This document shows, in pieces, positions 11,002 to 64,000 of a DNA stretch of 64,000 nucleotides. The stretch's first letter is position 1, and the number at the start of each line of letters is the position of its first letter. This DNA is from Geothrix edaphica (lineage in GTDB: Bacteria; Acidobacteriota; Holophagae; Holophagales; Holophagaceae), in assembly GCF_030268045.1 (NCBI RefSeq), contig NZ_BSDC01000001.1, positions 1,364,001-1,428,000 on the forward strand. The letters are read 5' to 3'. The position numbers and the translations under genes are program-made. The notes under the pieces were generated by a model that ran no database searches, had not been told where the DNA came from, and worked only from the letters and a program-made list of their open reading frames with translations.

Positions 11002-11120
11002 TCAGGCTTTGGGCGCCACCACTGTGATGAGAGCAGCCCCCGTCTCCACGGTGGCACCCTCCTGGACATGCACGACCGTGACGGTTCCCGTCGTGCTCGT
11101 CTTCAGCTCATTCTGCATCC
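11002..11120 (-). pseudogene. Duplicate of the accB 3' end (39-codon remnant)
   Basis: This stretch repeats the last 39 codons of accB (from M-Q-N-E-L-K to the TGA), offset by 157 bp. Over 117 nt I count 13 differences; 11 fall at the third codon position and only two change the residue (Ile to Val, Glu to Lys). So the copy diverged while it was still under selection as protein; it is not a fresh duplication. It has no biotinyl-lysine motif and no convincing start, and is joined to the intact accB by the hairpin linker 11115-11161. It can be read as the displaced end of an older or foreign accB. Confidence 0.8.
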
Positions 11121-11161
11121 TCTTGGTATCGCCTTTGGCGATACGCAAGGCCTCCAATTCA
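11115..11161 (-). repeat. 47-nt hairpin linker element, copy 1 (accB)
   Basis: Read on the minus strand it starts with the accB TGA, continues with GGAGG, then the perfect 8-bp hairpin GTATCGCCAAAGGCGATAC (11126-11144), and ends in ACCAAGAGGATGC, where the duplicated 3' end of accB begins. The same linker, with the stem changed in a compensated way, occurs twice downstream of uvrB (63286-63331, 63390-63435). Outside the stem-loop and the 3-4 nt after the stop, 29 of 33 aligned bases are identical. Confidence 0.75.
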
Positions 11162-11683
11162 GGCTTCGGGCGCCACGACGGTGATGAGTGCGGCCCCCGT
11201 CTCGACGGTGGCGCCCTCCTGGACATGCACGATCGTGACGGTCCCGGTGGTGCTGGTCTTCAGCTCGTTCTGCATCTTCATGGCCTCCATCACAAGGAGG
11301 GTCTGGCCTTCCTGGACGAGGTCTCCGGATTTCACGAGGAGCTTCACGATCTTGCCGGGCATGGGAGAGGACAGTACGCCCCCACCTGCGCCGGCGCCTC
11401 CGGAACCAGCCAGGAGGGCCCGGCGGGGATCCACCAGCGCGAACTCGTAGGCACCGTCGTAGAGCATGGCCCGGTAGGCGTGGGTGTCCGGGTCCGCCGA
11501 CTTGGCACGGTCCAGGCGGACCTCCACCGAGCGCCCTTCCATGAGGATCGAGTAGCAGCCAGGCTCCAGCTCGAGGATGTCGATGGGATGCCCCTGCCCC
11601 TCCCAGGTCAGCGTGGTCACGCCGTCCTGGTGGAGGAGTTCCACATCAAGGGAGTCCTTGCCGACGAGAAGGGTACGTTTCAT
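11159..11683 (-). CDS. Biotin carboxyl carrier protein of an acyl-CoA carboxylase
   Basis: A 174-aa protein whose C-terminal 70 residues form a biotinyl domain with S-P-M-P-G-K-I-V near 106-113 and the biotinylation motif E-A-M-K-M (Lys136). The N-terminal half (about 1-90) is a linker domain as in propionyl/methylcrotonyl-CoA carboxylase alpha chains. It lies 11 nt downstream of the biotin carboxylase gene; together they equal a split alpha subunit. No carboxyltransferase gene is in the window, so the acyl-CoA substrate is unknown. The last 39 codons are repeated downstream. Confidence 0.9.
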   Translation of the reverse strand: MKRTLLVGKDSLDVELLHQDGVTTLTWEGQGHPIDILELEPGCYSILMEGRSVEVRLDRAKSADPDTHAYRAMLYDGAYEFALVDPRRALLAGSGGAGAGGGVLSSPMPGKIVKLLVKSGDLVQEGQTLLVMEAMKMQNELKTSTTGTVTIVHVQEGATVETGAALITVVAPEA

Positions 11684-11694
11684 CTCTGTCTCCC

Positions 11695-13188
11695 CTACAA
11701 CCGGTTGAACCGGCCCCAGTGCTTCCAGGCGTCGGGTTTCCCGTCGGCATGACCCGCCGGCTGGGCGGCCCGGCGCTGCTCGGTTTCCAGTTCGTGCAGC
11801 AGGGCGGCGGCCACGGCGAACTTCAGGTCGGGGCCCTGCTCCTTCTTCTTCCAGAACGGCTTGTCGAGCATGCCCGTATGAAGCGCGCCCTCGCGGAAGG
11901 GCCCGTGCTCCATCAAGGCTTCATGGAAGGCGATGTTGTGGCGGATGCCCCCGATGCGGTACTCGCCCAGGGCCGCGCGCATGCGCTCGATGGCCTCCAG
12001 GCGCGTGGGCCCCCAGGTGCTCAGCTTGCTGATCATGGGGTCGTAGAACATGGGCACCTCGGCGCCCTCGTACACGCCGCCGTCGTCGCGCACGTTGCGC
12101 CCGCTGGGCGTGCGGAGGAAGGTGATCTTCCCGGGGCTGGGCATGAAGTTCTTGTCCGGGTCCTCGGCGTAGACGCGGCACTCGATGGCCCAGCCGTTGA
12201 GGGGGATCTCCTCTTGGGTCATGGGCAGCTTCTCGCCCCGGGCCACGAGGATCTGCCACTTCACCAGGTCGAGGCCCGTGATCCATTCCGTGACGGGATG
12301 CTCCACCTGCAGGCGGGTGTTCAATTCCAGGAAATAGAAGTTGCGGTCGGCGTCCGCAAGGAACTCGACGGTGCCCGCGCCGACGTAGTCCACGGCCTTG
12401 GCCACCTTCAGGGCCGCCTCGCCCATGGCCCTGCGCATCTCCGGCGTCACGTGGGGGCTGGGAGCCTCTTCGATCACCTTCTGGTGGCGGCGCTGCACCG
12501 AGCATTCCCGCTCGTGCAGGTAGACATGGTTGCCGTGGGTGTCCCCGAAGATCTGGATCTCGATGTGGCGCGGCTGGACGATGGCCTTCTCCACATACAC
12601 GCTGTCGTCGCCGAAGGAGGAGAGGGCCTCGCCCCGGGCCCGGGCCAGGGAGGACGTGAAGTCCTCGGCCTTGTGCACCAGGCGCATGCCCTTGCCGCCA
12701 CCGCCCATGGCGGCCTTGAGCATCACCGGGAAGCCGATCTTCTGGGAGGCCGCGAGCAGTTCTTCGTCGGCCATGGTTTCCTGGATGCCCGGCACCACGG
12801 GACAGCCCGCTCGAAGGGCCACAACCCGGGCGGCGGTCTTGGAGCCCATGCTCTCGATGGATTCGGGCCGTGGCCCGATGAAAGTGATGCCCGCGGCCGC
12901 GAAGGCTCGCGCCGCCTCGGCGTTCTCCGAGAGGAAGCCGTAGCCCGGGTGCACTGCGTCGGCGCCGCTGCGCCGGCAGACGTCAATGATCTTCTCGATC
13001 ACCAGGTAGCTCTCACGGGCCGCGGCGGGGCCGATGCAGTAGGCCTCGTCCGCCATGCGGACGTGCAGGGCGCCACGGTCGGCCTCGGAGTACACCGCTA
13101 CCGTGGGAATCCCCATCTCTCGGCAGGTGCGGATCACTCTCACGGCGATTTCCCCGCGGTTCGCAATCAAGATCTTGGTCACGGCCAT
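11695..13188 (-). CDS. accC: Biotin carboxylase subunit of an acyl-CoA carboxylase
   Basis: A 497-aa biotin carboxylase that uses ATP and bicarbonate to carboxylate biotin. The N-terminal K-I-L-I-A-N-R-G-E-I-A-V motif, the ATP-grasp glycine loop (G-G-G-G-K-G-M-R near residue 165), E-R-E-C-S-V-Q-R-R-H-Q-K and L-Q-V-E-H-P-V-T-E are all present. The frame is open upstream, but the family start is at the ATG 13188 with GAGG about 8 nt before it; the extra upstream codons belong to a duplicated accC start and a palindromic insert. Slightly longer at the C-terminus than the E. coli protein. Confidence 0.93.
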   Translation of the reverse strand: MAVTKILIANRGEIAVRVIRTCREMGIPTVAVYSEADRGALHVRMADEAYCIGPAAARESYLVIEKIIDVCRRSGADAVHPGYGFLSENAEAARAFAAAGITFIGPRPESIESMGSKTAARVVALRAGCPVVPGIQETMADEELLAASQKIGFPVMLKAAMGGGGKGMRLVHKAEDFTSSLARARGEALSSFGDDSVYVEKAIVQPRHIEIQIFGDTHGNHVYLHERECSVQRRHQKVIEEAPSPHVTPEMRRAMGEAALKVAKAVDYVGAGTVEFLADADRNFYFLELNTRLQVEHPVTEWITGLDLVKWQILVARGEKLPMTQEEIPLNGWAIECRVYAEDPDKNFMPSPGKITFLRTPSGRNVRDDGGVYEGAEVPMFYDPMISKLSTWGPTRLEAIERMRAALGEYRIGGIRHNIAFHEALMEHGPFREGALHTGMLDKPFWKKKEQGPDLKFAVAAALLHELETEQRRAAQPAGHADGKPDAWKHWGRFNRL

Positions 13189-13192
13189 CGGC

Positions 13193-13333
13193 TCAACCTC
13201 GCTCATTGGAATCGGATCGCAGGCTTGCGCGGGGACCTGACCCCGATCGCTTCGCTCCCGCTCCCTCGCTCCGCTCGATCGCGGAGGGGTCATCGTCCCC
13301 TCGATTGGCAATGAGGATCTTGGTCACGGGCAT
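13193..13333 (-). pseudogene. Duplicate of the accC 5' end, now a 46-codon leader ORF
   Basis: A second accC start lies 145 bp upstream of the real one: ATG at 13333 with its own GAGG encodes M-P-V-T-K-I-L-I-A-N-R-G, against M-A-V-T-K-I-L-I-A-N-R-G in accC. Over the 36 shared bases six differ, four of them at third positions, and one residue changes. After codon 12 homology stops (13297) and the frame runs through a 70-bp palindrome to a TGA at 13195-13193, four bases before the accC ATG. It may be translated and could couple to accC, but it is best read as a displaced gene start. Confidence 0.7.
13231..13300. repeat. 70-bp imperfect palindrome (REP-like)
   Basis: Outer arms GGGGACC-TGACCCC (13231-13244) and GGGGTCA-TCGTCCCC (13286-13300) pair over 13 bp with a small bulge; inside, GATCGC and GCGATC add a second offset pairing around a C/T-rich core. 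The shape and the GGGGTCAGGTCCCC-type edge recall REP-like elements linked to IS200-type transposases in other genomes, but no transposase is near. It lies exactly between the accC start duplicate and accC. Confidence 0.6.
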
Positions 13334-63185: not shown

Positions 63186-63311
63186 TCACTCCACTACGGG
63201 GCCTGAGGCCATGGCCAGGGGCGAATCGCCCGCACCCAGCAGTCGTTCGCGCCGGGCATGGAGGATACGGTCGCGCAATTCCGCGGCATCCACTCGGTAT
63301 GCCTGCGGCAT
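63186..63311 (-). CDS. Mini-ORF: duplicated uvrB 3' end, copy A (41 aa)
   Basis: Read on the minus strand: GGGAGG, eight bases, ATG, then 41 codons. The peptide has M-P-Q-A-Y-R-V followed by [17 protein letters not shown], a copy of the UvrB C-terminal UVR helix, and a unique tail (L-G-A-G-D-S-P-L-A-M-A-S-G). Because only this copy has the extra tail and G/C-rich codons, it may be the original end of uvrB, displaced. Translation is possible but unproven. Confidence 0.5.
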   Translation of the reverse strand: MPQAYRVDAAELRDRILHARRERLLGAGDSPLAMASGPVVE

Positions 63312-63347
63312 ACGCGAGACCTCCCGCGTCATATTGCCGCGGTCAAC
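63244..63347 (-). repeat. 104-bp tandem repeat, unit A
   Basis: The unit farthest from uvrB. Its first 48 bp (uvrB-like coding part) differ from unit B at six positions; five of the six are synonymous wobble changes when read as UvrB. The remaining 56 bp (63292-63347) are identical to unit B. Confidence 0.9.
63286..63331 (-). repeat. 46-nt hairpin linker element, copy 2 (uvrB)
   Basis: Minus strand: TGA stop of the mini-ORF at 63329-63415, CGCG, GGAGG, TCTCGCGT, then the 7-bp hairpin GTATGCCGCAGGCATAC, CGAGTGGATGC. Same layout as the accB linker (11115-11161). It links the repeated uvrB ends. Confidence 0.75.
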
Positions 63348-63415
63348 CGTTCGCGCCGGGCACGAAGAATCCGGTCGCGTAATTCCGCCGCATCCACTCG
63401 GTATGCCTGCGGCAT
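63329..63415 (-). CDS. Mini-ORF: duplicated uvrB 3' end, copy B (28 aa)
   Basis: GGGAGG and ATG as in copy A, then 28 codons: M-P-Q-A-Y-R-V and [21 protein letters not shown], i.e. exactly the last 21 residues of UvrB. The DNA of the uvrB-like part is identical to the 3' end of uvrB itself. A free UVR-helix peptide could in principle bind UvrC or UvrB, but this is only inference. Confidence 0.5.
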   Translation of the reverse strand: MPQAYRVDAAELRDRILRARRERLTAAI

Positions 63416-63451
63416 ACGCGAGACCTCCCGCGTCATATTGCCGCGGTCAAC
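63348..63451 (-). repeat. 104-bp tandem repeat, unit B
   Basis: Exact 104-bp period to unit A and to the uvrB end (unit C). First 48 bp identical to unit C, last 56 bp identical to unit A. Confidence 0.92.
63390..63435 (-). repeat. 46-nt hairpin linker element, copy 3 (uvrB)
   Basis: Identical to copy 2. It begins with the TGA of uvrB and joins it to mini-ORF B. Confidence 0.75.
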
Positions 63452-64000
63452 CGTTCGCGCCGGGCACGAAGAATCCGGTCGCGTAATTCCGCCGCATCCT
63501 CAAACTTCATCTGGGAGGCCAGCTCCTTCATGCGCTTCTCGAGCTTGGCGACCTCGCGCTCGAAGGCCTTGTCCTCCAGGTAGAGCAGCGGCTCTTCGGC
63601 GGCCCGCTCTTCCTTGGTGACGTTGATGAACTCCCGGGCCAGGGCCTCGCCCATGACGTCATCCAGGTTGCGCTTCACGGTCTCCGGCGTGATGCCGTGC
63701 TCAAGGTTGTGGGCCAGCTGCTTGTTCCGGCGCCGTTCCGTCTCGCCGATGGCCTGCTTCATGGACCCCGTCATCACGTCGGCGTAGAGGATCGCCCGGC
63801 CGTTCACATGGCGGGCGGCGCGGCCAATGGTCTGGATGAGGCTGCGGTTGTTGCGGAGGAAGCCCTCCTTGTCCGCATCCAGGATGGCCACCAGGCTCAC
63901 TTCCGGCAGATCAAGGCCCTCCCGCAGCAGGTTGATGCCCACCAGCACGTCGAACACGCCCCGGCGGAGGTTCTTCAGCAGCTCCACCCGCTCCAGGGTG
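63433..64000 (-). CDS. uvrB: UvrABC system protein B, C-terminal part (cut by window edge)
   Basis: The last 188 codons of uvrB; the gene continues beyond 64000. [15 protein letters not shown] and [13 protein letters not shown] are helicase motifs V and [10 protein letters not shown] and R-R-x-x-Q follow. The end is the UVR motif ([11 protein letters not shown]), which contacts UvrC. UvrB verifies damage in nucleotide excision repair. The final 48 bp (63452-63499) form repeat unit C and are identical to unit B, so the present gene end may be a replaced one. Confidence 0.95.

Follow-up and report, generated by a model that had tools for sequence, protein, structure and literature searches.

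Genomic islands and phages integrate at the 3′ ends of genes (attL/attR), where the incoming DNA restores the gene end and the resident end is displaced. In fungal mitochondria, mobile ORFs for endonucleases supply genes with a foreign C-terminus and push the native one aside, as described for atp6 of Allomyces and for atp6, atp9, cox2 and nad3 of Glomus sp. (PMC3630166), and these mobile-ORF gene hybrids are the closest published arrangement to the one reported here. Among short dispersed palindromes, the CGTC-tagged palindromic repeats are without a known transposase (PMC3733652), and the Rickettsia palindromic elements are palindromes within protein genes, often in frame and translated (as cited in PMC3733652). 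In the window, that is, the whole stretch of 64,000 nucleotides of Geothrix edaphica DNA that was analysed, we describe a stray second 3′ end of the gene accB, which is probably one of the sites occupied by a family of tiny non-coding mobile units, each with a hairpin and a gene end. We found no account of these Geothrix repeats in an open-access library.

The accB locus comprises four features, where X is the end within the gene, X′ the displaced end and PAL the hairpin between them:

11159 to 11683, minus strand: accB, complete, an open reading frame of 174 aa, the last 117 nt of which (11159 to 11275) are the in-gene end X
11119 to 11275, minus strand: accB unit (X, spacer, PAL) of 157 bp, read as an insertion ahead of X′ from the spacing of 157, the empty sites in relatives (e.g., G017) and the efp parallel
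11121 to 11153, minus strand: PAL hairpin of 33 bp, left tag AGGCC and right end CCAAGA, exactly between the accB copies and last part of the unit
11002 to 11118, minus strand: displaced accB 3′ end X′, then native downstream sequence (by comparison with X and relatives)

A preliminary description had noticed that the 3′ end of accB recurs downstream, and its counts were reproduced: over 117 nt, stop codon included, X and X′ show 13 differences, 11 of them at third and 2 at first positions, with two residue changes (I to V and E to K). The PAL hairpin between the copies (11121 to 11153) was absent from that description. This pair is the longest close direct repeat of the window (126 nt, 88%, spacing 157). 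The 11 of 13 third-position differences depart from an even spread (p = 2e-4), and the 11 of 13 synonymous codon changes exceed both the 26% expected if everything were neutral (p = 1.7e-5) and the approximately 41% expected if the displaced copy alone were neutral (p = 0.0017). When polarised against relatives, about 9 of the 13 differences fall on the X′ branch of the source genome (G000), 8 of them synonymous and 1 non-synonymous (p = 1.4e-4), so that X′ diverged as coding sequence. The earlier argument that a plain local duplication followed by neutral decay does not fit is thus sustained by the synonymous bias, both at accB (about 8:1 on the X′ branch) and at about 15 other genes, and by uvrB, also in the window, where two clearly different gene ends were brought together by a displacement.

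It had also been proposed that the two versions were separated for a long time as coding sequences, and that a foreign placement of one of them in a phylogeny would show which is native. The coding history of both versions holds, whereas the foreign or distant donor is wrong or unproven: in a maximum-likelihood tree both accB versions of the source genome fall in one local clade with those of G007, G017, G006 and G033 (support 89/81), and the tree identified no donor. In most other genomes X′ groups with the accB end of its own genome, and in 7 genomes X and X′ show only 0–5 differences. In the source genome X is closer than X′ to the sister species, which is opposite to the simplest form of the displacement model. 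The X′ of G002 carries an in-frame codon deletion. A mosaic gradient is absent from accB of the source genome, and the pooled gradient is inflated by an indel in G002. At least 13 other genomes have the same arrangement of gene end, PAL and X′ at their accB, and the event is not peculiar to this gene, accB being one of the sites that a hairpin family occupies throughout the genus. The stray second end is most likely the old end of the gene, displaced by a tiny hairpin-forming unit of roughly 100–160 bases that supplies a gene end of its own; units of this type stand at the ends of many essential genes in Geothrix and its close relatives. The direction of the displacement at accB, with X′ as resident and X as incoming end, we infer, and it is unproven.

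PAL at accB has the sequence TTG[C]GTATCGCC-AAA-GGCGATAC-CAA, with a bulged C, and its DNA fold reaches a z of -4.0. Other copies lie elsewhere in the source genome, and the hairpin is present in 47 of 47 Geothrix genomes, the reversed control giving 0 matches. Among 297 genomes spread over Acidobacteriota, PAL is confined to the family Holophagaceae, and exact matches in named records are mostly to Geothrix and Holophagaceae. Across 45 distinct PALs, 98% of the pair cells pair, and the stem shows 32 two-sided compensatory cells against 7.6 after shuffling, a value reached by none of 500 shuffles. A GNA loop is present in 100 of the 160 copies; such loops are very stable in DNA hairpins. The left tag is GGTC, GGCC, TGTC or CGTC, with CGTC in a minority of the copies and TGTC, GGTC or GGCC in most. 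At accB Rfam gave no match up to an E of 1, nor did it at a further seven PAL loci up to 0.1, and viral contigs held no exact match to PAL or to a second palindrome, element B, which is described below. There are also PALs without gene-end copies, found as inserts of about 42 bp (TTTCAGTTTGTC plus PAL) after AAG in long inverted-repeat intergenic elements of several types (L176-L195 and others).

About 15 genes show the order gene body, X, spacer, PAL and X′, with the hairpin separating the in-gene from the displaced end. These genes, named from their encoded peptides and not from a family search, include accB, efp, moeB, manC, polA, uppS, folP, rpsT, an odhB-like gene, thiC, uvrB and others. 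The sites are found at 3′ ends and also at 5′ ends, where PAL is inverted; the hairpin sits exactly at the junction in every copy, and this junction usually coincides with an AAG or AAA in the target gene. Unit length is 102–108 bp at most genes, 154–158 bp at accB, 155 bp at a permease gene and 178 bp at thiC, and the units (102–178 bp) contain gene end, spacer and hairpin only. In arrays of 2–6 PALs the units are almost identical, while the single end that closes the array is divergent, with a unit spacing of 68–71 in some of them. One six-PAL array (L043, G001:C7:98246-98620) is spaced at 68–71 bp, below the usual unit, and in a uppS array (L044, G010:C2) the two middle copies have decayed and the first and last ends are still coding-like. 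The start of manC is hypervariable and is copied from its own genome, and many displaced 3′ copies are truncated or decayed. Where X and X′ are identical, they remain so up to roughly the stop codon, beyond which the flanks are unrelated (G008, G003 and the efp of G019), a pattern that points to gene conversion, putatively limited to the homologous block.

When codon differences between X and X′ are pooled over loci, 101 are synonymous and 48 are other changes (p about 4e-11 against a neutral X′); since related sequences are counted more than once and are not independent, the pooled p-values are indicative only. The ratio is 51:24 without accB and 81:26 without the strongly decayed copies, with reading frames set by protein motifs and about 41% synonymous changes expected for a neutral X′ beside a constrained X. 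At several loci X′ has coding-type changes only. An excess above the neutral-X′ expectation indicates that X and X′ were working gene ends for most of their separation, their differences being mostly synonymous because each had served as a working end in a lineage of its own before the two came together. This excess is also what is predicted if a native end is displaced by an imported one and there is later exchange with functional ends.

The direction of displacement can be followed at uvrB, the third gene of the window with a displaced end, where the source genome carries two units in tandem:

63433 to 63498, minus strand: in-gene uvrB end X1, short type, 21 protein letters
63397 to 63421, minus strand: PAL variant with a shorter stem, first copy at uvrB
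63329 to 63394, minus strand: second uvrB end X2, identical to X1 over the first 63 nt; unit of 104 bp
63293 to 63317, minus strand: PAL variant, second copy at uvrB
63186 to 63290, minus strand: displaced native uvrB end, long type, reading frame intact, 34 protein letters, the protein end being the same as in the intact uvrB of G009, which lacks PAL

The displaced end behind the second PAL reads LLGAGDSPLAMASGPVVE and stop, and 7 of its 8 codon differences from X1 are synonymous. Wherever PAL is intact at this gene, in 9/9 genomes, the in-gene end is short (TAAI, VAVL, TSAT, TSVT, VGTP, ILAP, IQVS), and in most PAL-less genomes uvrB ends are long; the displaced ends match long types, that of the source genome being like G009 and that of G004 like G005. 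Moreover, the gene next to the intact uvrB of the PAL-less G001 also adjoins the displaced uvrB end of the source genome. Comparison among genomes shows a replacement at this gene, the short end of the unit having taken the place of the native long end. Short ends are also found in the PAL-less G026 and G013 and in G023, G039 and G028, where PAL is damaged or missing, so that one must reckon with short types that are native, or with a PAL that was lost once the end had been replaced. At efp the unit is absent from the sister genomes G007 and G017, in which the native downstream sequence directly follows X, and in the source genome the sisters' post-stop sequence comes after X′, at the same distance. 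This comparison of flanks identifies X, spacer and PAL together as the insertion.

A second palindrome, element B, behaves in a similar way at accC, a gene of the same operon as accB:

13150 to 13188, minus strand: native accC start (MAVTKILIANRGE), in-gene 5′ end
13224 to 13296, minus strand: palindrome of element B type, unrelated to PAL, between the two accC starts
13295 to 13333, minus strand: displaced accC 5′ end (MPVTKILIANRGD); unit of 145 bp, 4 of 6 codon differences synonymous

Element B is longer than PAL, and its arrangement at accC occurs in many species. The displaced accC start still has the native upstream region before it, and a leader frame of 46 aa runs from it to just before accC. 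Of 14 sampled sites with element B, 13 have duplicated gene ends, tRNA 5′ halves among them, flanking the palindrome, and the same holds for 1 of 385 control windows; palindromes of this type were also seen within a tRNA gene whose 5′ half is duplicated (L271 and L280, in G014 and G038). The copies are identical near the element, most differences lie far away, and the breakpoints vary by species. This gradient is the pattern of co-conversion that arises when an element-bearing allele is imported by homologous recombination.

The displacement that we propose is based on replacement by comparison at uvrB, on geometry at efp and on inference at accB. The unit would come to lie inside the end of a gene, which would then finish with the X of the unit, while X′ and the native flank would be pushed beyond the hairpin. 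Import would go likeliest through homologous recombination in the gene body and in X, and the hairpin end would join the resident gene at AAG. Later recombination among X, X′ and the gene ends of other strains could produce tandem units, homogenise X and X′ or lead to loss of the unit, this loss going by recombination between X and X′, and any X′ escaping homogenisation would decay. No mobilising enzyme was found, the Y1 transposase (PF01797) being absent from the source genome and from 42 of the 47 genomes of the genus. A Y1/RAYT transposase was rejected as the driver because it is missing from most PAL-bearing genomes, as was a single crossover within X′ as sole route, accB of the source genome being without a gradient. 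That PAL and element B are actively mobile, with a cellular single-strand or hairpin recombinase moving units of about 105–230 bp (gene end, spacer and hairpin), is a reading that we consider rather unlikely. If true, essential genes of this family would have been repeatedly re-ended by a non-coding DNA that survives because it repairs its own breakage.

Several other explanations have to be weighed against imported, displacing units. One is a local duplication of the gene end by slippage, by repair or as a long target-site duplication at PAL insertion, with decay of the outer copy and a recent ancestor of X and X′ in the same genome. The grouping of accB X′ with its own X in most genomes, with 0–5 differences in 7 of them, the hypervariable manC start copied from its own genome, a unit length near-constant at 102–108 bp across unrelated genes and the tandem arrays all speak for it. 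However, the synonymous excess (8:1 on the accB X′ branch of the source genome), the two different types of uvrB C-terminus, the in-frame codon deletion in the accB X′ of G002, and a spacer and downstream flank that are unrelated even where X equals X′ make such a history unlikely. Its simple version, a long target-site duplication, was discarded because the identity of X and X′ stops about at the stop codon and the uvrB ends are of different types. A site-specific recombinase could instead excise and reinsert circles of X, spacer and PAL at the AAG junction, like phages and islands at attB in gene ends; X′ would be functional while the unit is out, and both ends would therefore be under selection. 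The precise junctions, the tandem units, the conserved bulged C in a DNA hairpin and the coding-type changes only in X′ at several loci agree with this proposal, but there is no candidate enzyme, with Y1 absent in 42 of 47 genomes and an integron integrase that is present but faces a PAL without an attC core, and we regard it as quite improbable.

The synonymous excess could also mean that the displaced ends are functional, either translated or regulatory, and are kept by selection, and the displaced accC start, with its native upstream region and 46-aa leader frame, would suit such a role. Yet the 3′ copies come after a stop codon and then PAL and lack a convincing start, and many are truncated or decayed, so selection of this kind is very unlikely. 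A reading that goes back to the preliminary description has one accB version acquired horizontally from some distant species, without any involvement of PAL. Divergence that is mostly synonymous and of between-species size speaks for it; the presence of both versions in one local clade, and an arrangement shared by accB of at least 13 relatives and by many other genes, leave it with hardly any likelihood.

With imported, displacing units as the preferred reading, a repeat of about 100 bp that codes for nothing is able to persist in essential genes by carrying the gene part that it displaces. Protein ends are altered on the way, UvrB C-termini differing between PAL-bearing and most PAL-less species, and the fossil gene ends preserve traces of earlier alleles and of recombination in a phylum that has been little studied. 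Gene-end annotation and phylogeny can be misled by such units and, if a trans-acting enzyme exists, it would represent a new recombination system.

Among the known systems, the fungal mitochondrial hybrids share with these units the replacement end, a hybrid gene that is used, the native end displaced downstream and differences that are largely synonymous (PMC3630166). Replacement together with a displaced native end is found here at uvrB, and its geometry at efp. Unlike the mitochondrial insertions, which are about 1 kb long and encode a homing endonuclease, the PAL unit is of 100–160 bp, non-coding, hairpin-bearing, bacterial and also present at 5′ ends. Gene-end islands and phages are comparable in that the gene end is restored by incoming DNA and the resident end displaced, but PAL units are of about 105 bp, have no integrase or cargo (nothing but spacer and PAL separates the ends) and occupy dozens of target genes. 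Integron attC cassettes likewise form tandem units, each with a terminal hairpin and an unpaired base; identity with attC was rejected, as PAL has no GTTRRRY/RYYYAAC core and true attC arrays have GTTAGGC. Chromosomal integrons, with attC arrays and, in 29 of 47 genomes, an integrase that exceeds the curated cut-off (L208-L210; G000:C3:557586), coexist with PAL and are unrelated to it in sequence. The Rickettsia elements also place a palindrome inside protein genes, although they are translated, whereas here the gene stops before PAL and its end is restored. PAL resembles the REP and CGTC repeats as a short, dispersed, imperfect palindrome of about 20–40 bp near gene ends (PMC3733652), and the want of a known transposase is common to PAL and the CGTC types, but it has no GTAG tag, most PAL-bearing genomes have no RAYT, and every PAL of class B adjoins a duplicated gene end, a feature that is not in PMC3733652. 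PAL is probably a small palindromic mobile DNA that carries gene ends, and this gene-end carriage is the new part.
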